Shown here: one piece after another, positions 125 to 24,186 of the stretch
Layout of the letters: every line of letters starts with the position of its first letter
Position numbering within the stretch: position 1 is the first letter of the stretch
IMG/VR virus record: IMGVR_UViG_3300046724_000080
Coordinates: 1-24,356 of that record
DNA: 24,356 nucleotides
Source of the DNA: a virus
Reading direction: 5' to 3' (one strand)
The notes under the pieces: generated by a model
Seen by the model: the letters and a program-made list of their open reading frames with translations, nothing else
The model's database searches: none
Told to the model about the DNA's origin: nothing
Program-made: the position numbers and the translations under genes

Positions 125-158
125 ATATCCGCGGCTCAGGCCAGGATTAGCGAGCCAA

Positions 159-1349: not shown

Positions 1350-1384
1350 AATCCGCACGCCCGGCGCGGACCCCCACAGCGTAA

Positions 1385-1411: not shown

Positions 1412-1434
1412 GCGTGAAATACGTCCTCTGACGC

Positions 1435-1464
1435 TTGCCATGAATCGTGCATCCTGTATCATTC
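1435..1464 (+). promoter_or_regulatory. early promoter with embedded operator
   Basis: TTGCCA (1435-1440) and TATCAT (1457-1462) are separated by 16 bases, a good sigma-70-like pair for this GC-rich sequence. GTGCATCCTGTAT (1447-1459) lies between and across the boxes and matches the first ten bases of the dyad at 481-493. A larger symmetric frame, GAAT at 1442-1445 with ATTC at 1461-1464, shares the same centre (1453). Repressor bound here would block the promoter directly. The ATG of the first early gene is at 1507, with AAGGA at 1491-1495. Confidence 0.6.
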
Positions 1465-1506
1465 GCGCGCACGCTTTCCGCAACCGCAAGAAGGACACCT
1501 CCACCC

Positions 1507-2688: not shown

Positions 2689-2888
2689 TGGAGGCGCGCG
2701 ACTCAGTCGGGGGGTTCCCGCACATGCTGGGCGACCCCCGCGATACCTACCCCTCGCCCCACGAAGCAGCCGACGCCCTGATCGGCCGGCTGCGCGTGGA
2801 CGGCTTCACCATCATTCTCACCGGAGGCCACGCCTGCCCGCTATGCGGCGGCAGCGGCCTCGATGAACGGGATCAACACCATGTCTGA
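2688..2888 (+). CDS. small protein with CPLCGGSG motif
   Basis: This 66-residue protein starts at ATG 2688, sharing one base with the stop of the previous gene (TGATG), and its end overlaps the RecT start by 8 bp. Such tight spacing supports a translated gene. Near the C-terminus it carries H-A-C-P-L-C-G-G-S-G, a CxxCGGxG knuckle like one half of a zinc ribbon or a DnaJ-type cysteine repeat, preceded by GFTIILTGG. A single CxxC could bind zinc with the nearby histidines (HACPLC and the terminal QHHV) or through a dimer. No family was recognised. Confidence 0.6.
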   Translation: MEARDSVGGFPHMLGDPRDTYPSPHEAADALIGRLRVDGFTIILTGGHACPLCGGSGLDERDQHHV

Positions 2889-6712: not shown

Positions 6713-7483
6713 ATGTCCGTCGTCGCTTTCATCCTCGCCGCGACCGACGCGGGGCCCATGATCGTCAACCGGCTGGACGTCTGCCAGACCGAGAGCGGCT
6801 TCTTCGGGATCGGCGCCTCGCTGCTCAGCACCGGCGCCAGCCCCGAGGCCGCCGAGATCGCCGGGATCACCGGCCTGCTGCATCTGCGCCGCCAGCATCA
6901 CGGCGACGGCGTGGTGGTGATGGATATCGGCGCCAACATCGGCACCCACGCCTTGGCGTGGGGCAAGGCCATGCGCGGCTGGGGCCGCGTCATGGCGGTC
7001 GAGGCGCAGCAGCGGGTTTACTACGCCCTGTGCGGGAACGTCGCGCTGAACAACCTGTTCAACGTCACGGCCGTCCACGGGGCGGTGGGCGAGGCCAACG
7101 GGATCATCACGATCCCCGAACTCGACCACGAGCGCTCGGCCTCGTTCGGCTCACTCGAACTGCGCCGCGTCACCGGCGAGGATATCGGCCAGACGCCAAC
7201 AAGCGAAACGAGCGTCGCGATGTTCACGATCGATGATGCCATGCGGGGCGGGCGCGTCGATCTGATCAAGCTCGACATCGAGGGCATGGAACTCGACGCC
7301 CTGGCCGGCGCGGAGGCGACCGTCGCGAAGTATCACCCCGTCATCGTCGCCGAATGGACGAAATGCGGCGAAGCCCCGCTGAGCGCCTGGCTCACCGCGC
7401 GCGGCTACACCGTCCACGGCACCGGCATGAACACCCTCGCCGTCCACGCCGACGATCCGATCCGGGCGGGGTTCGCCGCCTAG
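6713..7483 (+). CDS. FkbM-family SAM-dependent methyltransferase
   Basis: This 256-residue protein transfers a methyl group from S-adenosylmethionine, in this family commonly to a sugar or other small-molecule hydroxyl. The SAM-binding motif is VVVMDIGANIGTHAL (67-81), followed by GRVMAVEAQQRVYYAL (91-106) and NNLFNVTAVHGAVGE. The family signature VDLIKLDIEGMELDALAGA lies at 182-200, then HPVIVAEW. ATG 6713 has AGGAGG at 6699-6704, the best ribosome binding site in this part. The gene is the last on the plus strand and converges on the late operon, sharing CTAG with its last gene. That position fits an independently expressed cargo gene, perhaps modifying host surface glycans or a virion component. 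The substrate cannot be read from the sequence. Confidence 0.85.
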   Translation: MSVVAFILAATDAGPMIVNRLDVCQTESGFFGIGASLLSTGASPEAAEIAGITGLLHLRRQHHGDGVVVMDIGANIGTHALAWGKAMRGWGRVMAVEAQQRVYYALCGNVALNNLFNVTAVHGAVGEANGIITIPELDHERSASFGSLELRRVTGEDIGQTPTSETSVAMFTIDDAMRGGRVDLIKLDIEGMELDALAGAEATVAKYHPVIVAEWTKCGEAPLSAWLTARGYTVHGTGMNTLAVHADDPIRAGFAA

Positions 7484-7720: not shown

Positions 7721-9748
7721 TCATGCCGTGGTTGAGTCGGTCAGCAGCCCGGTCGCGGCGATGGCCGTGAGCAGGGACGCGAGCGCGGCGTTGCCGCCGC
7801 GCGATCCGGTTACGGCCGGTTTGGCGACCGGCGCCGTGCCGTTGAAGCCCGGTCGTTGCATCGAGACGTTGGCCGCGAACACGATGTTGCCGGAACCGCT
7901 CGGCAGCATCACGATGTCGGTCCCCCCGGTAGAGCCGGGAGAAACCAGCAGCGCGTTGTTCGCGGGTCCGCCCACGGTCAACCCGTTGGCCGCCGTCAGC
8001 CCGCCCGAGCCGCTCACCGTCAGCCCGCCAGACCCGCTCGTCGCGAGTGTGACCGCGTTGCTCGCCCCCGCGCCCGGTGTGACCGTCAGGATGCTGTTGG
8101 TGCCGCCGCCGATAATCATCGGCGCGGCGAACTGGAACCCGGCGGTGCCGGCGTTGGAAAAATACACCGGGCTGGAGGGGTTCGCGCCCGGCGCGATCGT
8201 CATGTTGTTCTGCGTGCCGCCACCGGGCGTGCCGACCTGAAGGAACGACCCGCCGACCTGGACGGAGGGGGCGCTCAGCAGCAGGTAGGTGCCGCTGGCG
8301 GCCAACGTGGCGACGGCGCCGACCGTGGCACCGGGCGTCATGGTGAGCACGTTCCTGGACCCGGAGCCCACGATCAGGGGACCGGCGGCGCCCACCGTGA
8401 CGCCGCCCACGCCACTCGCCGAGAGCAGGATGGCATTGGCGCCCGCCACGCCCGGCAGGATGCTCAGGATGTTCTGCGTCCCGCCGCCGACCACGATGCC
8501 GGTCGTCCCGGTGAACTGGACCCCGGCGGTGCCGCTGACACCCAGCACGACAGTACTGGCCGCCGTGGCGCCGGGCGTGACCGTCAGGGTGTTGTTGGGG
8601 CTCACGCCAACGGAGAGGCCCCCCGTGCCTGGCGTCACCGCGATCCCACCCGTCCCGCTCGCCGCGATCAGGGCGGCGGTGGCGGCCGTGGCACCTGGCG
8701 TGAAGGCCAGGGTGTTCTTCGGGTTGGCGCCGAACGTCACCCGCCCGTTGTTCCGCTCGATCATGAAGGCGTAGCCGAGCGGGGCGCCGGTATCGTCGAA
8801 CGGCATCATCGCGAACCGGGTGCCCAGGTTGCCGGTGCTCTCGGCCGCGGTGTCGCCGATGTGGACGCCCCAGCGCATGACGCCGTTGCGCTGCGCCGAC
8901 AGATACCCGGTGTCGGAGTTCCCGGTGACCGAATTGAACTTCACGCCCGGCCAGCCGGGCCCGGTGCTGTTGATGTAGAGGTTCGGGTCGTTGACCCCGT
9001 TGATGGTGATCGGCGCCTTGGACGAGAGGCCGTCCGCCAGATCGACGATGCCGGTGTCGCGCCAGATCTTGAACGGGTAGTCCAGCAGCGTGCCGGTATC
9101 GTCGAAGCGGGCGAACTGAAGGTGCGAGCCGGTGTTCAGCGCGACGTCGCTCTCGATATCGACCGAGCCGAGATGCAGGCCCCAGCGGCGAAGGTTGTTG
9201 ACCCGGCCCGAGATCAGGTTCGCGCCCATCACGCCCGAGGTCGCGCGGGCGTGGTTGAGGATCATCTCGGGCCAGGTGGTATCGCCCGCGATGGTGTTCT
9301 CGATCACCACCTGGGCCCGGTCGGCCGGGTCGGAGGCGAACACGTGCAGGCCCGCGACGGTGGCGCCGGAGTAGGTCACCGCGAGGTGGGCGAAGGTGCC
9401 GGTCCCGCTGACCGTCAGGTCGCCCGTTATGTTGGAGCCGAGCGAGGTCGGCGCCGGAGCCCAGGCGGAATTGACCCGGCAGTAGTAAAGCCCGTCGGTC
9501 GGCGCCTCGGGGATGCCCACGCCGCCCCCGGCGATCAGCGCGTCGACGTAGGCCTTGGAGGCCGCGTGCAGCGGCTGGGTCGGCGTGTTGCCGAGCGTCA
9601 GATCGCCGAGGACCGAGGGGTTGGTCAGCCAGCCGCCGGTGGCGTCGACCTTCTGGCTGAACCAGTAATTCCACTCCTGGGCGAGCGGCACCTGGTTCGG
9701 CTGAATCTGGGGATCGCTGTTGGTCCCGACGGTGTTGGTGGCGCTCAT
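7721..9748 (-). CDS. tail fibre protein with tandem repeats
   Basis: This 675-residue protein is a probable receptor-binding or side fibre. The N-terminus (about 1-80) has the usual fibre pattern PLAQEWNYWFSQKV, LGDLTLGN and HAASKAYVDALIAGGG, the last seen in many trimeric tail fibres. Two related blocks follow (RWGLHLG..FDDTG..LDYPFKI and RWGVHIG..FDDTG..LGYAFMI, around residues 185-320). About seven repeats starting N-x-L-x-x-x-P-G make up the shaft (about 344-631). The end, AVTGSRGGNAALASLLTAIA and TGLLTDST, is a familiar fibre C-terminus. ATG 9748 overlaps the stop of the wedge gene (ATGA). The upstream continuation of the open frame has no start evidence and is rejected. No tail-spike enzyme motif was seen. 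Confidence 0.8.
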   Translation of the reverse strand: MSATNTVGTNSDPQIQPNQVPLAQEWNYWFSQKVDATGGWLTNPSVLGDLTLGNTPTQPLHAASKAYVDALIAGGGVGIPEAPTDGLYYCRVNSAWAPAPTSLGSNITGDLTVSGTGTFAHLAVTYSGATVAGLHVFASDPADRAQVVIENTIAGDTTWPEMILNHARATSGVMGANLISGRVNNLRRWGLHLGSVDIESDVALNTGSHLQFARFDDTGTLLDYPFKIWRDTGIVDLADGLSSKAPITINGVNDPNLYINSTGPGWPGVKFNSVTGNSDTGYLSAQRNGVMRWGVHIGDTAAESTGNLGTRFAMMPFDDTGAPLGYAFMIERNNGRVTFGANPKNTLAFTPGATAATAALIAASGTGGIAVTPGTGGLSVGVSPNNTLTVTPGATAASTVVLGVSGTAGVQFTGTTGIVVGGGTQNILSILPGVAGANAILLSASGVGGVTVGAAGPLIVGSGSRNVLTMTPGATVGAVATLAASGTYLLLSAPSVQVGGSFLQVGTPGGGTQNNMTIAPGANPSSPVYFSNAGTAGFQFAAPMIIGGGTNSILTVTPGAGASNAVTLATSGSGGLTVSGSGGLTAANGLTVGGPANNALLVSPGSTGGTDIVMLPSGSGNIVFAANVSMQRPGFNGTAPVAKPAVTGSRGGNAALASLLTAIAATGLLTDSTTA
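7857..8718 (-). repeat. seven degenerate ~40-residue repeats of the fibre shaft
   Basis: Each unit begins with a variant of N-N-x-L-x-V-x-P-G-A, followed by a Val/Leu strand, S-G-x-x-G and a Gly-rich turn such as IVGGGTQ or LIVGSGSR. Unit starts include KNTLAFTPGAT, NNTLTVTPGAT, NILSILPGVAG, NVLTMTPGAT, NNMTIAPGAN, SILTVTPGAG and NNALLVSPGST. Unit length varies between about 36 and 48 residues. A trimeric beta-helical or solenoid shaft is the likely structure. Confidence 0.75.
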
Positions 9749-12369: not shown

Positions 12370-13395
12370 TCAGATGACCGTGGCTGTGGCGCGCACGCTG
12401 CCCGTCCCGCCGATCCGCGCCGCGCCGGCCTCCCTCTCCACCGCCCCGACACGCACGAGACCGGCCCCGGCGACGATGGCGCCAGCAGCCGCGACCGTGT
12501 GTGTCCCCGCGGCGCGCACGCCACCGGCCCCGGCGATCGCCGCGCCGGCCTGGACCCCGCGCCGGATCACGGCGTCCGCCTGGACCCCGCCCAGGCCCGC
12601 CACGCGGGCCGCTCCGGGGAAGGTGCCGGCGAGGTGAACGGAGGCGTCCACCTGGACCGAGCCCACGCCGCCCAGGACGGCCGCCGTGGCCCCCCGGACC
12701 ACCGGGTTGGCGATCACCCGGCCGGAGCCGGCGAACAGCGACGGGGCGAGGCTGACCCCGCCTCCCGCGCGCATCCCGCCGCGCCCGTCGATCTGGGCCG
12801 CGGCCGCCTGGCGCAGCCACGAGGGCTGGCCGAAACTGTAGGTGACGTTGACCCCGGTCGGCCTCGGGAGCACCCCGGACTGGCTGATGATCGCGGCGAC
12901 CACCCGCGGCGGGAGGAACTCGAAGACGTAACTGAGCGACATGTTCCGGTTGTCGGCGATGTAGGTTTTGCCCAGCGAGCCGAACAGATTGATCAGCAGT
13001 TGGTTGGTCGCCGGGATCGAGCCGTCGATGATGTTGAACGCGGCCTTGGCCAGGATCAGCACCCGGTAGCCGTCGTCGCTCAGCGCGAAATTGCCGGTCA
13101 GCGGCTCGTTGTTGAAGAAGATGCCCTGATTGAACGGCCACGCCGACAGCGCGGTGGCCTCCTCGAAGCCGAACCACGGGTCGTCGACCTGGATCTTCAG
13201 CACCCGATCGACCGCGACGATGCGGCCCCAGACATCGAGGCCGTAGCCCTGGGCGGTGTCGACGTTCCAGACGAGGTCGTAAAACGCATCGAGGTTCGCC
13301 GTCGGGTCGAGCCACTGATTGACGGCGTAAAGTAGAGTTTGAATAGTTGGTGCCTGGTTGTACTGGCTTATTACCGTGCCCTGCCAGTTGATCAC
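12370..13395 (-). CDS. DUF2612-type baseplate protein (gpI-like position)
   Basis: This 341-residue protein has an N-terminal ~200 residues that fit DUF2612: LDAFYDLVWNVDTAQGYGLDVWGRIVAVDRVLKI, then FGFEEA, DDGYRVLILAKAAFNIIDGSIPATNQLL and MSLSYVFEF. Members sit directly after baseplate J and are thought to link the wedge and fibre, like P2 gpI. The last ~135 residues are a Gly/Ala/Val repeat (units like GxGxVxAxA, including GVGSVQVDA, GLGGVQADA, GAGGVRAAG and GTGSVRATA), probably an extended shaft or collar. The start is GTG at 13395, overlapping the J stop (GTGA). The product probably joins the fibre encoded 8 bp downstream. Confidence 0.75.
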   Translation of the reverse strand: MINWQGTVISQYNQAPTIQTLLYAVNQWLDPTANLDAFYDLVWNVDTAQGYGLDVWGRIVAVDRVLKIQVDDPWFGFEEATALSAWPFNQGIFFNNEPLTGNFALSDDGYRVLILAKAAFNIIDGSIPATNQLLINLFGSLGKTYIADNRNMSLSYVFEFLPPRVVAAIISQSGVLPRPTGVNVTYSFGQPSWLRQAAAAQIDGRGGMRAGGGVSLAPSLFAGSGRVIANPVVRGATAAVLGGVGSVQVDASVHLAGTFPGAARVAGLGGVQADAVIRRGVQAGAAIAGAGGVRAAGTHTVAAAGAIVAGAGLVRVGAVEREAGAARIGGTGSVRATATVI

Positions 13396-14843
13396 GGCGA
13401 GGCCACCAGCGCGACCGAGATATTGGCCGCCGAGAGGACCGGCACATGGGCGATCCCCACATGCACGTCGTCGAGCGTGGCGACCATCGAGGTGATCGCG
13501 GTCCCGGCCGGTATGCCGGTGACCAGGCTCTGGTTGAGGTTGTAGGTGCCCACCCCGCCGATCCCGGTGCCCAGCGAGGCGATCTGGATGCCGTCCGGGA
13601 TTCCATTGCCGACCAGCGTCTGGCCAACGGCCAGCCCCGAGCCGGCGGTCACCGTCAGCACGTTGGAGTTGGCCGGCACGGAGCCCACGATCCCGGCCGA
13701 GGCCCCGGCGGCGGTCGAGCCGAGCTTGATCGAGACGAGCTGGACCCAGGCGCCGAGGCGCGCGACCGGGGCGTAGTAACGCGAGGCGTAAACGATCGAC
13801 CCGATCCGCGCCCGGCTGCCCCCGTCATCGCCGGCCCAGGCGGTCAGGATCGCGTTCCGCACCTGGATCAGCGCGTCCTGCGGCACCGATGGTGAATTGA
13901 CCAGCGTGACGTTGACGATGAACGTCTGCGGGATCGCGATCTGAAACGATATCTGATAGCTGGGCGCGGGCGGCGCATAGCCTCCGTTGTCGTCGGTCAC
14001 GACCACCGTGGTCGATCCGGCCATGTTGCAGCCGGGCGCCTTCTTGGTGAAAATGGCGTGCGCGATGTCGCTCGACAGGCCGCCGGCCGCGCAGACGTAG
14101 AGCGAGTGCGGCGGCAGGGTGATCCCGTCGAGGATGACCGGCGTGTCGGTGAAGTTCTCCGTCGTGTAGGCGTCCAGCACGTTGGGCGCGCTCAGCACGG
14201 CGCCTTGCACCGAGGCCAGCATGCCCATCGAGTTGGCGGCGACCGAGTTGTAGCGGCGGCGCTCGAACTGTGCACGGCTCTCGACATCCTGGCCGACCAC
14301 GCCGTCGCTGTTGTTGAAGATCGAATCCCAGCCGGGGATCACCTGCCAGACCTGGTTCAGCGATCCGGTCGGGCAGGCCACGGGCCCGGTGATGTCGCAC
14401 TGGAACGGCAGCGTCACCGTGCCGTCGGCCCCGATCGTGCCGCCTCCGGTGGCGGCGTAGAAGTTACCGTCGGTCGCCTTCGCCAGCACGCCGGGCGGGA
14501 TCACCACGCCCTGCAGCCCGCGACAGGTCGCCTGCACCGTCGTCGGCAGCGCCGGGTTCCGTTCCAGGAAGTAAATGCGCGCGATGCCATCCTGCATCCG
14601 GCCTTGCGCGTAGGAGGGGTCGACGTTCTGCGTCAGCAACAGGAACTGGTCGTTGGTGTCGGAGATGATCGCGGTCTGGGTGCTGGCCAGTTGACCTTGC
14701 GGGGTCTCCGGCGCGGGGTTCAGCCCGCCGCCGAAGCACGCCTGCAGGTCGGCCAGCACGCCCGCGAGGATGTCCGCCTCGGTCGGCAGCAGGAAGCCGG
14801 TCGCCGTGAATACCGGGCGCGGAACGCTGGTCGTGCCACTCAA
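13392..14843 (-). CDS. baseplate assembly protein J
   Basis: This 483-residue protein forms the baseplate periphery of contractile tails. Family features are the ILAGVLADLQACFGG..PETPQGQLAST start, TVQATCRGLQGVVIPPGVLAKATDGNFYA, VESRAQFERRRYNSVAANSMGMLASVQGAVLSAPNV and LYVCAAGG.SSDIAHAIFTKKAPG. Residues 385-453 carry an extra module also seen in the neck and sheath proteins of this phage. The start is a rare TTG at 14843: an in-frame stop lies 12 bases further up, no other start lies between, and GGAGG at 14853-14849 is five bases away. It follows the plug gene by 18 bp and overlaps the DUF2612-type gene. Confidence 0.88.
   Translation of the reverse strand: MSGTTSVPRPVFTATGFLLPTEADILAGVLADLQACFGGGLNPAPETPQGQLASTQTAIISDTNDQFLLLTQNVDPSYAQGRMQDGIARIYFLERNPALPTTVQATCRGLQGVVIPPGVLAKATDGNFYAATGGGTIGADGTVTLPFQCDITGPVACPTGSLNQVWQVIPGWDSIFNNSDGVVGQDVESRAQFERRRYNSVAANSMGMLASVQGAVLSAPNVLDAYTTENFTDTPVILDGITLPPHSLYVCAAGGLSSDIAHAIFTKKAPGCNMAGSTTVVVTDDNGGYAPPAPSYQISFQIAIPQTFIVNVTLVNSPSVPQDALIQVRNAILTAWAGDDGGSRARIGSIVYASRYYAPVARLGAWVQLVSIKLGSTAAGASAGIVGSVPANSNVLTVTAGSGLAVGQTLVGNGIPDGIQIASLGTGIGGVGTYNLNQSLVTGIPAGTAITSMVATLDDVHVGIAHVPVLSAANISVALVASP
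13485..13691 (-). repeat. shared beta module, copy in baseplate J
   Basis: Residues 385-453: IVGSVPANSNVLTVTAG, then VGQTLVGNGIPDG, GTGIGGVGTYNLNQS and IPAGTAIT. The order of conserved parts (GS, LTVTAG, GxG-x-P-x-G, TY-x-x-N, PAGT) is the same as in the sheath and neck proteins. It interrupts the C-terminal part of J, before DDVHVGIAHVPV. Confidence 0.8.
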
Positions 14844-14861
14844 ATGGACCTCCCATCATCG

Positions 14862-15185
14862 TCATGCGACCGGAAAGAAGTAACCGAGGAAATAGCGGGT
14901 ATCGAGGCCGGTCCAGTCGGGGTCGGCGAGGCCCTGGCTGTCCCAGAAGGCCAGATCGCCGACGAAGCCGAGGTAGCCGTCGCGCACGATCCGCACGCGA
15001 TCCAGCGCCAGCACGCCGCCGATCACCAGCACGCCGTTGATGCCGAGATCGACATAGAGGCCGGTCGTGCGCTGGTAGACGTTGAGGTTGCAGTTCTGAT
15101 TCTGCAATTGAACGCTGAGCACCTGAGACGGCACCGCGCGCAGCGGAATGATCTGGCGCGTCGTCGCGATCACGAACCCCGACAT
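14862..15185 (-). CDS. phage baseplate plug protein
   Basis: This 107-residue protein matches the baseplate plug family over its whole length: IIPLRAVPSQVLSVQLQNQ, CNLNVYQRTTGLYVDLGING, VRIVRDGYLGFVGDLAF, then SQGLADPDWTGLDTRYFLGYF. Family members are small beta proteins thought to close the centre of the baseplate or hub. The ATG shares one base with the stop of the Dit-like gene, so the two are coupled. The N-terminal Met choice is firm because the pattern begins at once. Confidence 0.85.
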   Translation of the reverse strand: MSGFVIATTRQIIPLRAVPSQVLSVQLQNQNCNLNVYQRTTGLYVDLGINGVLVIGGVLALDRVRIVRDGYLGFVGDLAFWDSQGLADPDWTGLDTRYFLGYFFPVA

Positions 15186-16375
15186 CAGAAGACCACCCCT
15201 GGCGACACGTTCAGCCCGGTAGAATTGACCTCTTCCCTGGGCTGCGGCGGCGCGCTCGCGGCCGGCATGGCGGGCGGTGGCGGGTCTTCCGATGGCCGCG
15301 CCCGGTCGGGGACCGGCGTGGGACCGGGCGGCGGGTCCGCTGGCGGCGGCACGGGTGGCGGGTCTTCCGACGGCCTGGCCCGATCCGGCGGCTTCCTCGG
15401 CCCTGGGTCCGTGCCCGGCGGGGCGTCGGTCGGCTGGGTCTGGCCGTTGTTGTTGGCCGGCTCCGAGGTGGGCGATTTCGGCTCGTTGGTGAACGAGGCG
15501 CCGGTGATGATCCGCACCTCTTTGACCCACACGTCGACCACCAGCAGATTGACCCCGCGGCGGCTCTCCCGCGCGTATTCCAGGTGCGTGAGGTTGGCGC
15601 TGTAGTAAAGCGCCTCGGGCGTCACCACGGTGAACAACTCGAGCGAATTGACGGCGGCCTCGAGCGCGGCCAGCAGTTGCGTCCGCCGCGCCGCGCCGCC
15701 GGAACTGCCGACCACGAATGAAATCCGCACGTCGTACGGCACGGCGACCTTGTTGTAGCTGGCGAAGCCGCCGTCCTCGATCGGGAACTCGGCGACGCGC
15801 ATCTCGCGCCGGTAGTCGATCTTGATCACGGTCTCCCACGGCGCCACCGGCAGGCCGTTCCGGTTGAAGATGCCCCAGCGCGGGCCGGTGAACATGCCGA
15901 GCGTGATATCGGCGGTGACGAAGCCACCCAGGCTGGCGCTCAGCGACAGGCCGAACGGCGACAGCGAGACCCCGCCGGTCAGCGGGCCGATCCCGCCCGA
16001 CAGCGAGCCGGTGATCCCGGCGGTCAGGCTGGCCGAGACATTGCCCCCGATACTGCCGCCCAGGGAGCCACCGATCCCCGCGTTCAGGCTGCCGCCTATG
16101 CCGACGCCGACCGAGCCGGTCAGCCCGCCGAAACCCCCTCCCAGGCCCGCCGAGGCGTTGACGTTCACGCCAGCCCCGGTGATCCCCAGACTGGCTCCGA
16201 AACCCCCTGTCAGGGTCGGCACGCCCGGCCATTGCAGCACCGCCGGGGGCGGCGCGATGTTGAAGCCTCCCGAGGCGGTCAGGCCGAACACCGGGTTGAG
16301 ACCGATGCTCCCCGATATCCCGCCGGATATGCCGCCGATGCCGCCGGTGATGCCGCCGCCGATTGAGATCGACAT
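15185..16375 (-). CDS. Dit-like baseplate protein with Gly-rich N-terminus and Pro-rich tail
   Basis: This 396-residue protein has a central folded part (about 163-292): WGIFNRNGLPVAPWETVIKIDY, EMRVAEFPIEDGGFASYNKV, PYDVRISFVV and LTHLEYARESRRGVNLLVVDVWVKEV. That fits the Dit-like N-terminal domain of baseplate proteins found after tape-measure genes. Two regions are unusual. Residues 1-150 are a low-complexity Gly/Ser/Ile run (GGITGGIGGISGGISGS and similar). Residues 300-380 are Pro-rich with a duplicated DRARPSEDPPP (331-341 and 357-367). The core probably forms a ring beneath the tail tube. The extensions are unexplained. It starts one base after the tape-measure stop. Confidence 0.7.
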   Translation of the reverse strand: MSISIGGGITGGIGGISGGISGSIGLNPVFGLTASGGFNIAPPPAVLQWPGVPTLTGGFGASLGITGAGVNVNASAGLGGGFGGLTGSVGVGIGGSLNAGIGGSLGGSIGGNVSASLTAGITGSLSGGIGPLTGGVSLSPFGLSLSASLGGFVTADITLGMFTGPRWGIFNRNGLPVAPWETVIKIDYRREMRVAEFPIEDGGFASYNKVAVPYDVRISFVVGSSGGAARRTQLLAALEAAVNSLELFTVVTPEALYYSANLTHLEYARESRRGVNLLVVDVWVKEVRIITGASFTNEPKSPTSEPANNNGQTQPTDAPPGTDPGPRKPPDRARPSEDPPPVPPPADPPPGPTPVPDRARPSEDPPPPAMPAASAPPQPREEVNSTGLNVSPGVVF

Positions 16376-16376
16376 C

Positions 16377-18767
16377 TCAGGCGAGCCCCGTGTCGGCCTG
16401 GGCCGCGTAGTCGAAGCGGCGCAGTTCGCGCTTCAGGTCGCGCGCGATCCCGGCCGCGTCGGTGGCGGCGGTATGGACGTGGATTTGCGCGATATGGGTC
16501 TGCGAGGACATCGAGTGGTCGACGCTCATCGCCGCGAACTGCGCCCGCTGGCCGGCGGCCGAGGCGCCGAAGGCGGGCGAGAGCGATGGCGCGTCCGACG
16601 CGAAAGCCGGATCGCCGCCCGTGCGCCACGACGTCCTGGCCGGCCGCGGGGTCACCCCCCGCGCCCACTCGTCGGCCGAGTGCCGCCGGAAGCGTTCGTC
16701 CATGTCGGCCTGCGTCGCCCCCGGCGCGGCCTCCGCTCCTCCTGGCAGCGAGGTCCAGATGCGATTGAGCGCGGCGGCGATGCGGGGAAGGTTCGCGGGG
16801 TCTTTGAGGTCCTGGTCAAGATCACGCCCGTGTGTGTTGCGCGCATACATCTGGCGCGCGTAGAACTGGAAGTTGATGTCCTGGTCTTCGTGAGACGACC
16901 TGTCCCAGCGCCCGGTCTGGGCCGCGACCTCCTTCCAGGTCGAGTCCTTGAACTGATACCGTCCGAAGGCGGTCACCGAGTTTGGCCGCGTCTCGTAGCC
17001 CGCCCTGCCGGCCTCGCGGTCCGCGATGGTGTCCGCGAAGGCGCGCATCTCCGGGCCGCCGGCCTCCGTCGATGTCGTTCCGGGATTGTAGCCGCCGCCG
17101 ATCTCGGTCTGGTGGGCCGTGGCCTTTTCCTCAGCCATTTTCTTGAGCGCGTCGGCCGAGTCCTTGGTGTTCTTCTCGACCTCCGCGAGCCGTTCGAGTT
17201 CCAGTTCGCGCTCGGCGACCACCTTCTCGACATCGAGGCGGGTGAATGATTTGCCGTCCTTGGTGAACTCCGTCGGATGGCCGAAATCGTCCACGTTCTT
17301 CGTGTTGTAGCCCATCTGCCAGGCCTTGGCCTCGGTATCCCCGGCCTTGAACTGCGCGAGGGCCGCCGCCGCCGTCAGCAGGACCACGCCGGTGCCGACC
17401 AGGGCGGGTGGCGAGATGAGCGCGGGAGCAAGGTCGGGGAGCGCCGACGCCGCCCTGGGCGCGGCCTTCGACAGCAGCCCGCCCAGCGTCACGATCTCCC
17501 GCATGCTGCGGATCACGGAGGCGACCTTGCCGGCGGCCCAGATGCCGAAGAACACCTCCATCACGGTGCCCCAATGCTCGAACGACGACGCCACTTTGTA
17601 GACCTCGGTCGCGGCCGTCCCGGCTGCTTTCGCGAACGCGGTGGCATCGGTGATCATCTTCTCGAAACGGCCAGAGTTGACGAATTTCTCGACGTCGGTG
17701 GCGATCTGCACGATCGCGCCGCCAATGGCCTTGGCCCAGGTCTCGATGGTGTTGTCGCCCTTGTGCAGATTGAGCCAGTTCTGGATTTTGCCGACCACGA
17801 TATCGATGGACGGCGCCAGCGCCTCCATGAACGCCTTTCGCATTCCCTCGATGGTCTGTTTGGCGAGGTCGAGGTCTTGCACCAGCTTCTGGCTTTGCAG
17901 CCCTTCGCCCTCTTTGGTGTAGTTGCCGGTGCCGCGCTGCAGTTCCAGTTGATGTTGGATTTCCGCCGGGCCGCGCGCGATCATCGGCGCGATTTCTTCC
18001 ATCCCGGCGCCGCGCAACCGCTCGGTGATTTCCGGCTGCTTCATGCCGCGCCGCTGCGCCGACTGCGCGATCTCCATCATGATCGCGAAGGGGTCTTTCT
18101 TGCCGCCCTTCTCGTCATTGATATTGACGCCGAACAATTCCAGCAGCGAGTTTTTGGTCTGGCTGTTGCCGGTGAGTTTAAGTTCTTCGAACGCGCGCTG
18201 GATCGCGCCGACGCTGTGCGACACGCCCTCCGCCGTGGTGCCCATCCGCGCGGCCATGCCCATCCACAGCGACAGCGCCTCGACGTTCACATTCATCGAC
18301 GCCGCCAACTGGACCATCTGCGTGTTGGTCTTGGCCACGTTCATGAACAGCCGTTCCATCGCCGAGACGGACATCGCGATGCCCATCATCGACAGCAGTT
18401 CGACACCGACGCGCCGGATCGAACTGGCGACCTTGTCGTAGCCCTCCTCGGCCATGCGCGTGGTGGCGCGCATGGTCTCGGCGGTCTTCTTGGAGGCGTC
18501 CTCTTGCTCCTTGCCGCCCCGCCGCGCCGCCGTCCCCTGCGCGTCGGCGGCTTCCTGGGCCGCCTGGGTCGCCTCGCTCGCCGCCTCCCGCTGCACGCGC
18601 GCGGTGTTCTGGGCCGTGGCCTTGGTCGACTGCTCGATCTTGTCCAGGTTCGCCAGCATCTTCGCCAGCAGGCTATCGGAGGCCGTCTGCGCGTCGGCCG
18701 CGCCCTTCTGGAAACCGCCCGGTTCCAGGGTCAGCGTCATCGCCAGTTCGTCAATGATCGTGGGCAT
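16377..18767 (-). CDS. tail tape measure protein with lambda-lysozyme-like domain
   Basis: This 796-residue protein sets tail length and probably also opens the cell wall. The first ~120 residues are an Ala/Gln/Glu coiled coil. Residues 120-420 hold the helical core (VGVELLSMMGIAMSVSAMERLF, LSLWMGMAARMGTTAEGV). A hydrophobic stretch lies near 450-475 (ALVGTGVVLLTAAAALAQF). Residues about 575-675 resemble the lambda endolysin / GH104 fold: FADTIADREAG with Glu585 in the place of the catalytic Glu, TAFGRYQFKDSTW, EDQDINFQFYARQ and LNRIWTSLPGG. The end, IHVHTAATDAAGIARDLKREL, is common in tape measures. AAGGGGG lies upstream of ATG 18767. It is short for a myovirus tape measure, suggesting a moderate tail length. 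Confidence 0.85.
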   Translation of the reverse strand: MPTIIDELAMTLTLEPGGFQKGAADAQTASDSLLAKMLANLDKIEQSTKATAQNTARVQREAASEATQAAQEAADAQGTAARRGGKEQEDASKKTAETMRATTRMAEEGYDKVASSIRRVGVELLSMMGIAMSVSAMERLFMNVAKTNTQMVQLAASMNVNVEALSLWMGMAARMGTTAEGVSHSVGAIQRAFEELKLTGNSQTKNSLLELFGVNINDEKGGKKDPFAIMMEIAQSAQRRGMKQPEITERLRGAGMEEIAPMIARGPAEIQHQLELQRGTGNYTKEGEGLQSQKLVQDLDLAKQTIEGMRKAFMEALAPSIDIVVGKIQNWLNLHKGDNTIETWAKAIGGAIVQIATDVEKFVNSGRFEKMITDATAFAKAAGTAATEVYKVASSFEHWGTVMEVFFGIWAAGKVASVIRSMREIVTLGGLLSKAAPRAASALPDLAPALISPPALVGTGVVLLTAAAALAQFKAGDTEAKAWQMGYNTKNVDDFGHPTEFTKDGKSFTRLDVEKVVAERELELERLAEVEKNTKDSADALKKMAEEKATAHQTEIGGGYNPGTTSTEAGGPEMRAFADTIADREAGRAGYETRPNSVTAFGRYQFKDSTWKEVAAQTGRWDRSSHEDQDINFQFYARQMYARNTHGRDLDQDLKDPANLPRIAAALNRIWTSLPGGAEAAPGATQADMDERFRRHSADEWARGVTPRPARTSWRTGGDPAFASDAPSLSPAFGASAAGQRAQFAAMSVDHSMSSQTHIAQIHVHTAATDAAGIARDLKRELRRFDYAAQADTGLA

Positions 18768-18782
18768 CGCGGCCCCCTTAAA

Positions 18783-19787
18783 TCATGAGGTCGGGATCAG
18801 GTTCATCGGTTGCCCGGACGCGCCGAACGTGGCGTGCCACTGACCGCCCGGTGACTCCGACTCCAGCGAATACGAGTAGCCGTAAATGTAGAAAAGCTTT
18901 TGTTCCATGTTCCAGAGATGGCTTTGCACCACGATCTTGATGCCGAGCTTGAGCGGGCGGAACAGGGTCGTGACCATGATGCCGCGACTATCGAAGATCG
19001 GATAGGTCTTCATGCCGCTGGTGGGCGAGATCAGCGGCACCTCGCCGGTATCGCGGGACCGGCCGCGCGGCCAGATCGCCAGCACGCCGTTCTCGTTGGT
19101 GAAGTTGATGCCGGCATGCTCGGCGATCCGCCGCGCCTGCTGCATCGCGGTGCCGGGGTAGTAAATGTCGCGCAGCTTCGCCACGACGCCGTGGTTCTCG
19201 AACGTCAGCTTCATCTGTCCGGCGAGTTGTTTCATGATCGTCGCGACGTCGACGCCCCCGGCGACCGAGATCGGCGGCGCCGGTTTCATCTCGTCGTAGG
19301 CCCCGGCGAACGCCTCCACCATCAGCGCGACGTCGGGCTGGCTTTCGCCGTCGAAATAACAGTTGACCAGCACGCCCTTGAAGATCCGCGTCATGCCGGC
19401 GAGGTCGTCGCCCGCGTTGACCTCGATGGTGTGATTGAGCACGGCGGGATATTGCAGCCCGCGCGTGGTGAGCGCGATCATGTCCTTGAACGGCATCCCG
19501 TAGACGCGCACCGAGCATGTCGTCTTGGCCCCGGCCGCGGCGTGGGAAATCGTCACCGAGCAGCGATGGCCGGTCAGGCGCAGCGTGTTGGCGCCGTTGG
19601 CGAAGGTCGCCGGCTTGCCGGTGGACTCCGGCCTCCCGCCGACCAGGATCACCTCGGTGCCGAGTTGGAACGTGAGGTCGATCCGGCGGCGGATATAGGG
19701 CGTCGCGCCGCCCTGCCCGGCGGGCGTGGGCGCGGGCGTGGGCGCGGGCGAGGTCGGGCCAGGGGGGGCGGTGGTCGCGGCGCTCAC
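18783..19787 (-). CDS. baseplate hub protein (gpD/gp27-like)
   Basis: This 334-residue protein probably forms the hub above the spike. After a Pro/Thr-rich N-terminal stretch (7-30) come IRRRIDLTFQLG, NTLRLTGHRCSVTISHA, CSVRVYGMPFKDMIALTT and FKGVLVNCYFDGESQPDVALMVEAFAGAYDEMKPAPPISV. Then VATIMKQLAGQMKLTFENHGV, ARRIAEHAGINFTNENGVLAIWP and the C-terminal LGIKIVVQSHLW..YSYSLESE. This order (two beta barrels and a hub helix domain) is typical of hub proteins between spike and tape measure. The start is GTG at 19787, two bases after the spike stop. The assignment rests on pattern and position rather than a certain family match. Confidence 0.7.
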   Translation of the reverse strand: MSAATTAPPGPTSPAPTPAPTPAGQGGATPYIRRRIDLTFQLGTEVILVGGRPESTGKPATFANGANTLRLTGHRCSVTISHAAAGAKTTCSVRVYGMPFKDMIALTTRGLQYPAVLNHTIEVNAGDDLAGMTRIFKGVLVNCYFDGESQPDVALMVEAFAGAYDEMKPAPPISVAGGVDVATIMKQLAGQMKLTFENHGVVAKLRDIYYPGTAMQQARRIAEHAGINFTNENGVLAIWPRGRSRDTGEVPLISPTSGMKTYPIFDSRGIMVTTLFRPLKLGIKIVVQSHLWNMEQKLFYIYGYSYSLESESPGGQWHATFGASGQPMNLIPTS

Positions 19788-19789
19788 GG

Positions 19790-20437
19790 CTACTGTGGCA
19801 CGCCCGAGAGCCCGCCACCGGGCTGGACATCCTTGTGCCGGTGGGTGTCGTCGATGCTGTGGCCGTTGCTGGTCACCGTGCCGCCGCTCTGCTGGACGTT
19901 GCCCACCAGCTTGATGTTCGGCGCGCTGATGGTGACCGTCCCCGGCGAGTGCAGCACGATCCCATCGTCGGTGAACTGCACGTACTGGCCGGGCGCGGCC
20001 GTGGCCATGACGGTGCCGACATAGAGCGCGTCGGCGTAGTCGTGCCGGCGGTGCGAACCGGGCGCGGAGGCGGCGCCGCCATTGGCCTTGACCGCCGAGA
20101 TATCGCGCGAGGCGCAGACGATCACGCCGACGTCGTTCACTTTCGGGTCCATGATGATCCCGTGCCCGCCGTTCTGCATCCGGTGGTATGGCACGTTGAA
20201 GATCGTTCCGTGCGGGTGGACGTTCCCCAGCCCGTCGATCTGGTGCACCAGCGGGGTCACGTCGATCGTGCCGGGTTGGCCCAGCTCGCCGTTCTTGCGC
20301 ACCGCCACGACCTTGACCACCATCGAGGTGGCCACCTCCGACAGCACCGAGCGGACCAGGAAGCGCAGCGCGTTGACCTCCGAGCCGTCCTCGCCGACGG
20401 CGCCGCGGAAGCCGACCCAGCCGTCCGTTTCGCTCAT
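19790..20437 (-). CDS. baseplate spike protein (gpV / Gp138-like)
   Basis: This 215-residue protein is the likely membrane-piercing tip. Residues 30-145 have the Gp138 / spike OB-fold pattern: SMVVKVVAVRKNGELGQPGTIDVTPLV, FNVPYHRMQNGGHGIIMDPKVNDVGVIVCASRD. Residues 150-215 form the beta-helix and apex: FTDDGIVLHSPGTVTISAPNIKLVGNV, then NGHSIDDTHRHKDVQPGGG. His199 and His201 make the HxH motif that binds an iron ion at the needle apex in P2-type spikes. ATG 20437 overlaps the stop of the frameshifted chaperone (ATGA). The longer open frame upstream covers the chaperone overlap and is rejected. Confidence 0.82.
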   Translation of the reverse strand: MSETDGWVGFRGAVGEDGSEVNALRFLVRSVLSEVATSMVVKVVAVRKNGELGQPGTIDVTPLVHQIDGLGNVHPHGTIFNVPYHRMQNGGHGIIMDPKVNDVGVIVCASRDISAVKANGGAASAPGSHRRHDYADALYVGTVMATAAPGQYVQFTDDGIVLHSPGTVTISAPNIKLVGNVQQSGGTVTSNGHSIDDTHRHKDVQPGGGLSGVPQ

Positions 20438-21068
20438 TTGGGTCTGTCCTCTCGCGCGGCCCACTTGTTGGCGAGCCGCTGGTTGAAGCCGTCCACCTGG
20501 ATGATCTCGGCCAGCATGTAGAGGTCGGCCACGCCGTAGACGGTCTGCAGTTCGCGCAATGTCGCGAGTTTCGCCGAGATCACCGCCCCAACTGTTGCGC
20601 TGGGAAGGTTGCGATATTCGGCCCACTCTGGTTCGTCTCCTCCAACGGTTCCGTCGTCCAGTTGAAGTAACGAGCGCGTACGGAAAAACCCAGATGGGTG
20701 TCGAACCATGCCTCCCGGATCGCCAGCCGCGTGGTGATTTCCTCGATGTCGTCCTCGATCAGCGGGCGCGTCAGCGCCCGGTTCGGATCGGGTTGAATCG
20801 TGACGCAATCCATCATCTCGTCGAGCAGCGGCTTGGCGACGATCCAGTCGATGCCGCCGACGCCGTGCACCGCCACCCAGGCGGCGATGCCCTCGACGCC
20901 CATCTGGAAGAACCCCGACGGGACGTTCTGATTGCCCTTCGCGAGCATGGTCAGCAGCCGGCCGGCCCAGTACTCGGCCGCCGCCGCGCTCATTTCGGTG
21001 ATCCAGAAGACCTTGCCCAGGTCGCGGCCGGACCGCTCGATCACCAGCTTTTCGCGCCGCCGGGCCAC
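20434..21068 (-). CDS. tail assembly chaperone, probable -1 frameshift product (E-E'-like)
   Basis: Contractile and long-tailed phages often make two chaperones that coat the tape measure, the longer by -1 frameshifting. The short frame (GTG 21068 to 20580) overlaps a second frame ending at 20434, which lies exactly in -1 relation. The second frame encodes GAVISAKLATLRELQTVYGVADLYMLAEIIQVDGFNQRLANKW, a good helical domain with no good start of its own. A GGGTTTT heptamer sits in the right register at 20691-20685. Slipping there would join residues 1-128 of the first frame to 83 residues of the second, about 211 in total. The second frame ends in an ATGA overlap with the spike gene. Confidence 0.7.
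20580..21068 (-). CDS. tail assembly chaperone, short form (E/G-like)
   Basis: This 162-residue protein begins at GTG 21068, one base after the tube stop. It has EKLVIERSGRDLGKVFWITEMSAAAAEYWAGRLL, then IAAWVAVHGVGGIDWIVAKPLLDEMMDCVTI and an acidic IEDDIEEITTRLAIREAWFDTHLGFSV. The layout (N-terminal beta and helix, then a long helical part) suits the first chaperone encoded after the tail tube. The last ~34 residues after the slippery site are Pro/Gln-rich and look like a disordered end, as expected where translation normally does not slip. The order sheath, tube, chaperone is the usual one. The family itself was not recognised by sequence. Confidence 0.7.
   Translation of the reverse strand: MARRREKLVIERSGRDLGKVFWITEMSAAAAEYWAGRLLTMLAKGNQNVPSGFFQMGVEGIAAWVAVHGVGGIDWIVAKPLLDEMMDCVTIQPDPNRALTRPLIEDDIEEITTRLAIREAWFDTHLGFSVRARYFNWTTEPLEETNQSGPNIATFPAQQLGR
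20685..20691 (-). promoter_or_regulatory. GGGTTTT slippery heptamer for -1 frameshifting
   Basis: On the minus strand the reading is CTG GGT TTT TCC, that is G GGT TTT in the zero frame: an exact X-XXY-YYZ heptamer. After tandem slippage the tRNAs would pair with GGG TTT and continue with TTC CGT in the second frame. The site is inside the overlap of the two chaperone frames. No downstream pseudoknot was worked out. Confidence 0.65.
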
Positions 21069-21069
21069 G

Positions 21070-21501
21070 TTACAGCGGCGCCCCGGTGATCGACTGCCAG
21101 GTGATGGTGAACCGCCTCGGCTGCAGCACCCGGCGCGCGTCGGTCATCGGCGGAAAGTTGGTCAGGAACCCCTGGACGCAATAGAAGGTCCGCCCGATCG
21201 AGGCCAGGGTGATATGCGCATTCGCGATGTAGGCCTCGCGCGCCTGCTCCTGGGCATTATACCAGGTGTCGAACACGAGGTTGCTCGGGCTGTCCGCCTG
21301 CAGCGCGATGGTCTGGACTTTCGGTTGCGGCGTCCAGCCACCGGAGAGGATGCCGTCCACGCCCATCAGCGTTTCCACCGGCGCCACCAGCGCGTGCGAA
21401 AACACGTCGTCGGCGGCGAAGCCGTGCAGTTGTTGCGGCGTCGGAAAAAGGCTCGTGACCGAAATCATGAAGACCGCGTTCGCGGCGGTGATGGTCGCCA
21501 T
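21070..21501 (-). CDS. tail tube protein
   Basis: This 143-residue protein is the likely inner tube of the contractile tail. It contains FMISVTSLFPTPQQLHGFAADDVFSHALVAPVETLMGVDGILSGGW, then PKVQTIALQADSPSNLVFDTWYNAQ and RRVLQPRRFTITWQSITGA. The V-D-G-x-L-S-G-G-W start and the last strand are typical of tube proteins paired with DUF3383-type sheaths. AGGAGA precedes ATG 21501. It sits 27 bp after the sheath and one base before the chaperone. The call is supported mainly by length, pattern and fixed gene order. Confidence 0.78.
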   Translation of the reverse strand: MATITAANAVFMISVTSLFPTPQQLHGFAADDVFSHALVAPVETLMGVDGILSGGWTPQPKVQTIALQADSPSNLVFDTWYNAQEQAREAYIANAHITLASIGRTFYCVQGFLTNFPPMTDARRVLQPRRFTITWQSITGAPL

Positions 21502-21528
21502 TGGAAATCTCCTGTCGCTTGCTGGACG

Positions 21529-23349
21529 TTACTGAACCATCACAGAGGCGAGGGTGATGCGCTGGACAGAGCCGCCGTCTGCGTACCAAAAGGTGCATGG
21601 CGGGGTTCCGCGGTTGCCCCGCACCTGGGGCGCCGCGTCGAGCACCTGCAGGTAGTAGCCGATGCTGTTCAGAATGCCGTCGATCGGCACGCCGGCCATG
21701 TTGTTGACGGCGTTGATCTGGGCCTCGCTCAGCGTCACTCCCGCGCGGATCGCGCCGAAGTTCAGCGCGGCGTTGATCACGTCCTGGCAGGCCGCCTTGA
21801 TCATCGTGTAGCCGACCTGGGTGTAGGGGATGCTGCCGGTCTGGGTGAGCAGTTCCATCAGCGCCTGCTGGAAGCCGTTGTTCATCCAGATCTGATTGAT
21901 GAAGCTGTCGATCCACTTATACGGGCCTGACACGACGCCCGGATAGAGGAAGCGGAACTGGTCGTTGGCGGTCGTCCAGATGCCGTAATAATTGTAGAAG
22001 TTGGCTTCGAGGTTGGCCGCGATCCCGCCGTCGGTGATGTCGGGGATGATGCCGGTCTGGCCGCGGAACGCCAGCGTTTTGCGCCCATTGAGGCGGTTGA
22101 AGTCGATCGCCGCGATGACCCCCATCGTGAAGGCCGCCAGGTTGCGCCCGTTCGAGACGTTCGGCGAGTAAATCACCGCGGTGCCCGACGACAGCGAGGT
22201 ATGCAGGATGCTGGCGAGGCTGTTCGGCGCCGAGGCCGAAACGGTGGGCGCGACGTCATTGTCCCAGGCCACGTAAAGGTAGTTGCTCTGCTGCAGATTG
22301 GTCCACGCGGCGAACGCCTGTTTCTGCGTGTTCTGCCCCGGCTGGTCGGGATCGAAGGCGGTCATGAAGGAGGCCCAGTTCATGGTCTTCTTCAGCACGC
22401 CATCCATGAACGAGGCCGGCGTCGGCGCCGCGAGGCCGAAGGCCGGGTTCGAGTTCATTCCAACCGGCTGCAGCCGGGCGCCGGTGTCCTGGTTCAGCTT
22501 CAGCACACCCGCGAGGTTTCCGGCCGACGCGGTCGGGTAGCCGATGGACGGCATGTGCGGCGTCGCCGTCACCCAGAACGGCGCGCTGGTGATCATGAAC
22601 TGGAACGTCTGCGCGTCCCAGGAGCAGGGGTTGCCATAAATCTTGAATTGCGTCCCGGCCGGGATGCTCAGCGAGCGGTTGATCTGATAGGTGCTGTGCG
22701 AGACAAAGTTGTCGGTCGAGGACAGGTTGGCGGTGATGTAGGTGCCCGCCGGCACGCCCGGCCCGGTGACGATCATCGGCGACAGAATCTGACTGCCGGG
22801 CATCCCCGCGGTGATCGTCAGGATGTTGCCGGCGATGCTCCCGACGGCGATCGGGTTTGGGGTGCCGTTGATCGGCAGGCCCAGGTAGCCGAGCGCCGCG
22901 CCGATCATCTGGGCGGCCATCGAGAACGAGGTCGCGGCGGCGAGCGTGATCGGCTGCGAGGTGTGGGACACGCCGTCGATCGGCAGGGTGATCGTGCTGT
23001 TGGGCGTGCAGGCCTGAAGCTGGGCCAGCGTCAGGGTCGGCAGTTGCGCCGAGCGCAGCCACGCCGGCAGCCAGGTGCTGCCGTAGCACGCCATCAGCAG
23101 CGCGCCGGGCCGCCTCGTGGCGTTGATGTCGGCCAGGAAATAGGTGCCGGCGAGCGCCGCGATGTAGCTGGTCGGACCGAAGAAGGTCTGCACCGCCGTC
23201 AAATTCGGGAACGAATAGACCTCGCCGAGCGGGATGTGGTTGTCCGTCGTGATCAGCAGGCCGAGCAGATCGAGCCCGACCCCGCCCGCGTTGAGGACGC
23301 TCGGAACGACGTTTACGATTTGACCAGCGGGGATCGCTGAGCCGCTCAT
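21529..23349 (-). CDS. tail sheath protein, DUF3383-type
   Basis: This 606-residue protein forms the contractile outer sheath. Family features are IVNVVPSVLNAGGVGLDLLGLLITTD, SFPNLTAVQTFFGPTSYIAALAGTYF, PGALLMACY, FNRLNGRKTLAFRGQTGIIPDITD, ANLEANFYNYYGIWTTANDQFRFLYPGVVSGPYKWIDSFINQIW and a C-terminus with GSVQRITLASVMVQ. Residues 168-239 are an inserted beta-rich module also found in the neck and baseplate J proteins. AGGAGA precedes ATG 23349. It is separated from the neck gene by 99 bp that contain duplicated copies of that gene's end. Confidence 0.85.
   Translation of the reverse strand: MSGSAIPAGQIVNVVPSVLNAGGVGLDLLGLLITTDNHIPLGEVYSFPNLTAVQTFFGPTSYIAALAGTYFLADINATRRPGALLMACYGSTWLPAWLRSAQLPTLTLAQLQACTPNSTITLPIDGVSHTSQPITLAAATSFSMAAQMIGAALGYLGLPINGTPNPIAVGSIAGNILTITAGMPGSQILSPMIVTGPGVPAGTYITANLSSTDNFVSHSTYQINRSLSIPAGTQFKIYGNPCSWDAQTFQFMITSAPFWVTATPHMPSIGYPTASAGNLAGVLKLNQDTGARLQPVGMNSNPAFGLAAPTPASFMDGVLKKTMNWASFMTAFDPDQPGQNTQKQAFAAWTNLQQSNYLYVAWDNDVAPTVSASAPNSLASILHTSLSSGTAVIYSPNVSNGRNLAAFTMGVIAAIDFNRLNGRKTLAFRGQTGIIPDITDGGIAANLEANFYNYYGIWTTANDQFRFLYPGVVSGPYKWIDSFINQIWMNNGFQQALMELLTQTGSIPYTQVGYTMIKAACQDVINAALNFGAIRAGVTLSEAQINAVNNMAGVPIDGILNSIGYYLQVLDAAPQVRGNRGTPPCTFWYADGGSVQRITLASVMVQ
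22633..22848 (-). repeat. shared beta module, copy in the sheath
   Basis: Residues 168-239: AVGSIAGNILTITAG, TGPGVPAGTYITANL, STYQINRSLSIPAGTQF. It follows AAQMIGAALGYLGLP and precedes SWDAQTFQFMITS, so it splits the usual hinge between the N-terminal sheath domain and the next strand. It is probably displayed on the outside of the sheath. Confidence 0.8.
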
Positions 23350-23393
23350 GGCAGTCTCCTGTTGTGAAATTTCCGGGGGCGGCGCGGCGGGCG

Positions 23394-23465
23394 CGCGGGG
23401 TCAGTCGTGCGACGGCACGCGGGGTCAGTCGTGCGGCGTGACGCGGGGTCAGGCGTGCGGCGTGA
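23394..23465 (-). repeat. three 24-bp tandem repeats spanning a stop codon
   Basis: Units at 23394-23417, 23418-23441 and 23442-23465 differ at only a few bases; a partial fourth starts at 23466 inside the gene. Read on the minus strand they encode PRVTPHA-stop, PRVTPHD-stop and PRVPSHD-stop. The first belongs to the end of the neck gene and the others are duplicates of it, all in the same frame. The array fills most of the gap before the sheath start. Confidence 0.9.
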
Positions 23466-24186
23466 CGCGGGGGATCAGGAACAGATCGACCGGGATCAGG
23501 CCGAGGTCGAGTTCGTCGGCGAACTCCTGGCCGAGCGTGACGACGGTGTTGACCTGGAGGTGAAGGTCGACGATCCAGCGGTCTTCCCAGGTGGCCTCGG
23601 CGTTGGTGAACGCGGCCATGTGCGGGTCGTCGGCGTAGAGCGGCTGCATCTCGAACGGCGCGGCGGCCGCGGCGAGCAGTTGGCACCCGGCGTCGTCGCG
23701 CCAGGTCGTGGCCAGCGCCATCACGTTGCTACTCGACGCGGGGCCATGCACGTCGACCTGGAAAACGAAGTCCACCGGCTGGATCATCAGGTGCCGGCCG
23801 ACATAGATCACGGTCCCCGCCGGGGCGCTCTGGGGCGGGGCCACGGTGTAGGTCCGGGGATCAGGGCCGGCGGCGGTGATGACGCTGCCACGGGCCACGC
23901 CGGGGCCGTACAGCGCGTAACCCGCCAGGAGCGCCGGGCCGGTGGTCACCGTCATGGTCTCGCCCGCGATCGAGCCGATCACCTTGAGGTCGAAGTCGGT
24001 GTCGCGGTTGGTCGACAGCCGCTCGCGGCGCAGCGGCGTCAGCACGCAGAAATCCGGCCCGATCGGCTCCGGCACCCGGTTGGCGTAGGCCCGGATGACC
24101 TCGACCCCGGCCGGCAGCAGGCCGAGCAGCACCGTCCGCGCGACGGTCAGGATTTCCGTGTCGCCGAGGTTGACCAGGGCCACCAT
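23449..24186 (-). CDS. neck / tail terminator protein (gp12-like, LIC_12616 type)
   Basis: This 245-residue protein closes the head-proximal end of the tail. Residues 15-65, VLLGLLPAGVEVIRAYANRVPEPIGPDFCVLTPLRRERLSTNRDTD, and the later VFQVDVHGPASSSNVMALATTWRDD, PLYADDPHMAAFTNAEATWEDRWIVDLHLQVN fit the phage neck terminator family. Residues 69-130 are an inserted beta module (GSIAGETMTVTTG, YGPGVARGSVIT, TYTVAPPQ, APAGTVI) placed between RLSTN and the next strand. The family is usually about 170-180 residues, and the insertion accounts for the extra length. ATG 24186 lies three bases after the upstream stop. The final codons belong to the 24-bp repeat array. Confidence 0.8.
   Translation of the reverse strand: MVALVNLGDTEILTVARTVLLGLLPAGVEVIRAYANRVPEPIGPDFCVLTPLRRERLSTNRDTDFDLKVIGSIAGETMTVTTGPALLAGYALYGPGVARGSVITAAGPDPRTYTVAPPQSAPAGTVIYVGRHLMIQPVDFVFQVDVHGPASSSNVMALATTWRDDAGCQLLAAAAAPFEMQPLYADDPHMAAFTNAEATWEDRWIVDLHLQVNTVVTLGQEFADELDLGLIPVDLFLIPRVTPHA
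23797..23982 (-). repeat. shared beta module, copy in the neck protein
   Basis: Residues 69-130: VIGSIAGETMTVTTG, then YGPGVARGSVITAAG, RTYTVAPPQSAPAGTVIYVG. The conserved order matches the sheath and baseplate J copies. The linker after VIT is shorter than in the other two. Confidence 0.8.

Follow-up and report, generated by a model that had tools for sequence, protein, structure and literature searches.

The window, by which we mean the whole 24,356-base stretch that was analysed, contains a contractile-tail operon in which the tail terminator, the tail sheath and a baseplate J-like wedge each carry one copy of a small beta-rich module (Table 1). The sequence-only reading of this DNA had called the first of these a neck protein. 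The module is indeed there, and the protein itself is a tail terminator, as identified by PF23961 and by the Foldseek matches of its AF2 model to neck/gateway proteins (Pa193 9b42_G, Pam3 8hdr_G, E217 8fvh_M and XM1). The sheath has relatives in the PDB (9b42_S, 8fvg_A, 8env_A); used as the query in a genome scan it returned no relative, and no closely related phage came up when the tail region was run through megablast. Elsewhere in the window, a RecT-family recombinase (2863-4878, plus strand; PF03837, E=6e-25) has a long acidic Gly/Asp-rich tail after its RecT domain, an FkbM-family methyltransferase encoded on the strand opposite to the tail operon (6713-7483, plus strand; PF05050, E=2.5e-17) is possibly a sugar-modifying cargo, and a putative tail fibre (7721-9742, minus strand) contains degenerate NxLTVTPGATxxxxxTLxASGxGGLxVG repeats and matches neither Pfam nor the module profile.

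Table 1. Position of the module copies and of their host genes in the window.
Feature	Location (strand)	Product or place in host	Basis
Window	24,356 bases	IMG/VR virus record; contractile-tail operon on - strand	
Module copy 1	23797..23979 (-)	Tail terminator residues 70-130	Pairwise and profile homology, AF2
Host gene of copy 1	23449..24186 (-)	Tail terminator / gateway protein, 245 aa	PF23961 E=2e-18; phrog_1876
Module copy 2	22633..22848 (-)	Tail sheath residues 168-239	Pairwise and profile homology
Host gene of copy 2	21529..23349 (-)	Contractile tail sheath (DUF3383), 606 aa	PF11863 E=7e-102; phrog_205 tail sheath
Module copy 3	13485..13691 (-)	Baseplate J residues 385-453	Pairwise and profile homology; AF2 alone
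Host gene of copy 3	13392..14843 (-)	Baseplate J/gp47-like wedge, 483 aa from putative TTG start	PF04865 E=4e-11; phrog_6 baseplate wedge
Plug gene, just before J	14862..15200 (-)	Pam3_gp18-like baseplate plug, without module	PF22479

Homology and fold of the three copies

The terminator, sheath and J segments are copies of one domain family of ~60-70 residues. Local BLOSUM62 scores between the segments reach 83 (terminator-sheath), 78 (sheath-J) and 63 (terminator-J), with z = 10.0, 6.9 and 5.3 respectively in a test where 0 of 2000 shuffles scored as high for each pair; an iterated profile recovers the window copies at E = 4e-23, 2e-20 and 8e-18, and finds exactly three of them, with no fourth. 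Shuffles and iterated E-values together rule out chance similarity. When the full proteins are aligned, the best local alignments centre on the same segments, showing that the similarity is confined to the module. The homology that the sequence-only reading had proposed is thus borne out, at the places where it had been located. Searched as a profile, the three copies match the corresponding segment in relatives (E down to 1e-12) and the module in many other phage virion proteins.

In the AF2 model of the terminator, built on a 45-sequence alignment (mean pLDDT 86; 92-98 over residues 71-130), strands run over residues 61-82, 91-93, 101-106 and 112-147. The J copy modelled by itself adopts a confident six-stranded beta fold (pLDDT 91.3, pTM 0.78; strands 2-9, 13-21, 29-31, 40-47, 52-60 and 64-73), and the order of its elements agrees with that in the terminator model. 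Foldseek against the PDB found nothing below E 0.001 for the module; the best matches are weak (a tail tube chain of phage Mystique at 0.02, a chain of Arthrobacter phage Bridgette at 0.04, the phi92 endosialidase at 0.1), and weaker ones fall on ATP-synthase N-terminal domains. A comparison with predicted viral proteins gave 12 hits at E<=0.001; besides capsid, P22-gp10, fibre and unnamed proteins of phages, these include proteins of Indivirus ILV1. In this giant virus, two collagen-repeat proteins (BFVD A0A1V0SCQ2 and A0A1V0SDM6) match the module fold with TM 0.80 and 0.76 and 41% and 29% identity.

Insertion sites, copy number and age

Sheath homologues from viral contigs and named phages were aligned, together with their terminators and J proteins. 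At the sites examined, the module is cleanly absent from phages of Acinetobacter, Aeromonas, Pseudomonas, Klebsiella, Burkholderia, Xanthomonas and Helicobacter; in the named phages it is missing from all three proteins wherever each was available, and terminator, sheath and J are all module-free in L022 and L023, which are close relatives from IMG/VR. Module-free sheaths occur in L022, L023 and L025-L032. The comparison with module-free phages, which the sequence-only reading had put forward as a check, therefore gives clean absence at all three sites. Module-free terminators and sheaths align straight through each site, as expected if the module interrupts these families; the interruption, which had been noticed for these two proteins, extends to J, where relatives have a short turn in place of the copy and the alignment is continuous without it (the window reads IKLGS, then the module, then TLDDVHVGI, against IQIGT-VTANANFVNVNI in L023). 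Because relatives do without it, the module is not needed for assembly itself. As far as the fragments reach, the same sites are occupied in the close relatives L004, L008, L010/L012, L014, L015 and L018. In L004, L006 and L013, the gene that precedes J carries a fourth copy, placed on the N-terminal side of its plug domain, PF22479 (in L004:18676-19452, module at residues 81-137, plug domain at 165-256); the window orthologue is without it.

Across the DUF3383 group, number and place vary: the sheath contains 0, 1, 2 or 3 tandem copies, J has the module near profile position 378 or near 233, and the terminator has one copy, or two at different places in L196 and L218. The sheath copy of L204, a Paraburkholderia elongata prophage, sits in a later loop than that of the window, the J protein of L134 is the only one of its proteins to contain the module, and L166 and L085 combine a module-bearing terminator with a module-free sheath.

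The three window copies are mutually 33-46% identical. In a tree of 52 copies, a short alignment with many unresolved forks, the window terminator copy groups with the terminator copies of L010, L004, L008 and L015 (100/100) and the window sheath copy with that of L004 (98/88); the window J copy falls among J copies without strong support. These groupings point to old gains of the module followed by mostly vertical descent at each site. The suggestion that the module has been spreading between the genes of one virion is not upheld for the recent past: the copies in this genome are old, as their divergence indicates, and have mostly descended within their own site, by which the terminator and sheath copies group clearly and the J copy weakly. 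The sheath copy is hypervariable: relatives with 63-71% identity in the host part retain only 26-42% in the module, a divergence that is less marked for the terminator and J copies. The dN/dS of the module lies between 0.11 and 0.59, below 1 for every pair tested and above the host value in 4 of 5 comparisons, the ratios at larger distances being rough because dS nears saturation. Judged from these ratios, the module is shown to be retained under purifying selection, which would be equally expected of a neutral domain that is obliged to fold.

Distribution across virion proteins

A search at the DNA level for the GTYTVxxxQTV end that recurs in the module gave at least 120 stretches in viral contigs and 75 in GTDB genome contigs, where 35 loci were confirmed by the profile, mostly in Proteobacteria. 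The set collected covers 166 loci, some of them near-duplicates, whose 225 module-bearing ORFs contain at least about 300 copies, 262 of which are distinct. Beyond terminator, sheath and J, 149 host ORFs fall into 51 clusters once the module is masked, an upper bound on the number of independent families because fragments may split; representatives match PHROGs or Pfam families of capsid, decoration protein D, adaptor, head closure, minor head, tail tube, major tail and fibre. Insertion is seen independently in a P22-gp10-like head-closure protein: it has two tandem copies in L121 and L092, whereas its counterparts in L231, a close relative, and in L230 (Rhodoferax phage P26218) have none. The module is thus shared by many unrelated hosts and absent from close relatives of each, as befits a promiscuous accessory virion domain, and the occurrence of similar modules in other phage structural proteins, as the sequence-only reading had it, is borne out. 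The presence of three copies in one tail operon, which had been thought notable, is real and becomes less exceptional in this setting: 47 of the 166 loci have two or more module-bearing ORFs, one group has the module in four genes and one locus has 11 copies. This last locus (L227), a Chloroflexi UBA2235 contig that is partly N, lies outside Proteobacteria and spreads its 11 copies over three ORFs; at another, a single open frame of 4384 residues (L076:2-13153, plus strand) contains seven copies in one protein.

In Pfam, no model covers the module (36 copies scanned, E<=0.01; nothing for the window copies alone), and a profile search of the PDB gave nothing below E 0.5; phmmer matches to 6xi1 and to RecA fusion constructs were set aside as sums of weak repeats, each stretch being unconvincing alone. 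Short tblastn queries against named phages gave no match, a result that is uninformative, since MW202520.1 (L231), which is in the collection searched, has a clear copy; the low-complexity filter probably masks such queries. Two tail-fibre clusters, phrog_21413 and phrog_38233, enclose the module at positions ~399-465 of 595 and ~556-621 of 896. They differ from the family described here in being whole-protein clusters to which the module is internal, so that the domain is neither delimited nor named. They match 51 and 41, respectively, of 56 unrelated host proteins, meaning that annotation by best PHROG could mislabel module-bearing proteins as tail fibres.

Discussion

The module is real and widespread, an accessory domain that tailed phages carry in their virion proteins and that apparently has no name. 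The sequence-only reading had pictured an exchangeable beta-domain, and this picture stands up well: the J copy is predicted to fold alone, the module interrupts its host families and it recurs in many phage structural proteins. As to its role, the reading that we favour, at about even confidence, is that of a mobile accessory domain displayed on outward loops and likely making many weak contacts with the surface of the host cell or with its polymers. The long first and last of its six predicted strands would join a host strand or hairpin, allowing the module to fit into a loop or turn while leaving the host fold undisturbed. From such outward-facing loops, it could then be exposed as a displayed accessory, and its job may be to multiply weak contacts with the cell: with one copy per sheath subunit, some 200 sheath copies would be exposed on a tail like that of E217, which has 204 sheath subunits (PMC10329688). 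The module is likely to be displayed on the tail surface, because the sheath insertion of the window maps between the counterparts of Pa193 residues 144 and 207, within the part of that sheath (residues 91-210) described as its 'flexible domain' (PMC11042391), and because added sheath domains lie away from the tube-contacting face and core (PMC9230969). Weak adhesion is probably the function, by analogy with Ig-like domains and with the carbohydrate modules of 936 phages. The composition of the module (53% S/T/G, 2.2% charged, 3.9% aromatic and 0.1% Trp, in a set whose partial collection with a Thr/Gly-rich pattern biases the figure; the host proteins have 28% S/T/G, 12% charged and 9% aromatic) nevertheless argues against a carbohydrate module of the aromatic-platform type. 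Adsorption is also a poor fit for those copies that sit near the head, in head-closure, adaptor and terminator proteins; the authors of the R4C study reached a similar view of an Ig-like adaptor domain (PMC10276861).

Could the module instead have no consistent function? A foldable, uncharged Ser/Thr/Gly-rich domain could behave as a near-neutral hitch-hiker, spread by illegitimate or module-to-module recombination because insertion into surface loops is tolerated. The extraordinary host range, the bland composition and the patchy occurrence among close relatives (the extra plug-gene copy in one group, the module-free sheaths of L166 and L085) all suit such a domain. We nevertheless consider it unlikely: retention per site among hosts that are 63-71% identical, with dN/dS of 0.11-0.59, suggests upkeep, even if folding constraint alone could suffice, and in compact genomes its loss should be both easy and advantageous. 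It also seems doubtful to us that the module is best seen as a mobile element at the protein level, that is, a foldable domain that moves between the structural genes of unrelated tailed phages and builds up tandem copies thanks to termini that fit beta-hairpins of the host protein, its spread being largely independent of any single function.

Cementing would assign the module a structural role, in which it contacts neighbouring subunits and stabilises the sheath, the terminator ring and the baseplate (the capsid in other phages) with no host binding. Sites in head-closure, adaptor, terminator and capsid-decoration proteins suit stabilisation better than adsorption, and the same possibility has been raised for added sheath domains (PMC9230969). 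However, a precise subunit interface is hard to square with 0 to 3 copies at one site of an otherwise alignable host or with sheath copies that diverge to 26-42% identity, and each host family would need to reinvent its partner interfaces; cementing therefore strikes us as improbable, and less likely than weak adhesion. The least tenable proposal, to which we attach almost no credence, is that the segments belong to the ordinary core of each host family, either because the whole proteins share an ancestor or because their beta-strands have converged in composition. The three host proteins are indeed rich in beta structure, and in the terminator model the strands of the module run on into host strands, but the similarity limited to the module, the J copy that folds confidently alone and the members of all three families that align through the site without it refute this for the window.

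Promiscuous accessory domains of the phage particle are a known kind, so the module is familiar as such; it is apparently new as a family, so far as the libraries and literature searched show, with no Pfam model, name or sequence-detectable structural relative. Nearest in kind are the Ig-like domains (Big_2, I-set, FN3), which, as Fraser et al. (2006) are cited in PMC9230969 and PMC10276861, are likewise promiscuous beta-domains of many unrelated virion proteins, often variable in number and thought to aid adsorption weakly. There are differences: (i), the module is six-stranded by prediction and mostly an internal insertion; (ii), no Ig-like Pfam model matches any of 36 copies at E<=0.01 (the nearest, Big_6, at 0.014 for one copy); (iii), its weak PDB fold matches, all above E 0.001, are to phage tail and tailspike proteins and ATP-synthase N-terminal domains, not to Ig folds. 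The 936 lactococcal phages carry carbohydrate-binding modules in neck passage, major tail and Dit proteins, two of them with shown host binding (PMC6669499). As in the present case, one virion can bear accessory modules on its neck, its tail and its baseplate, in varied combinations. They differ in that binding has been shown for them; the module here is poor in aromatic and charged residues, is one family across head and tail, and is matched by no CBM model in Pfam (scans of 36 copies and of the window copies alone). Added sheath domains (PMC9230969) and the XM1 insertion domain (PMC10457771) are comparable as extra sheath domains off the tube-contacting core, but these are described as mostly Ig-like or FliD-D3-like, and the module is found in the same phage also outside the sheath, in terminator and baseplate.

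Many of the odd differences in size among related structural proteins of phages are explained by the module, and its contamination of whole-protein clusters such as phrog_21413 and phrog_38233 means that unrelated proteins may be falsely linked. Identical sites that occur with and without the module, or with 0-3 copies of it, provide clean natural pairs for testing virion decorations.

Another small phage beta-barrel, that of the endosialidases (PF12195; K1F and phi92 tailspikes), gives a weak Foldseek match to the module; the K1F barrel binds polysialic acid (PMC12632334). PF12195 matches 0 of 36 module copies scanned, and an apparent link through L047 was discarded, since the hit lies at residues 600-660, below the gathering score, and the module at 1059-1119. 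The PF12195-like segment of this ORF (1-3948, plus strand) does share a VGxxI...GTYTV-like pattern with the module, perhaps reflecting a distant kinship.
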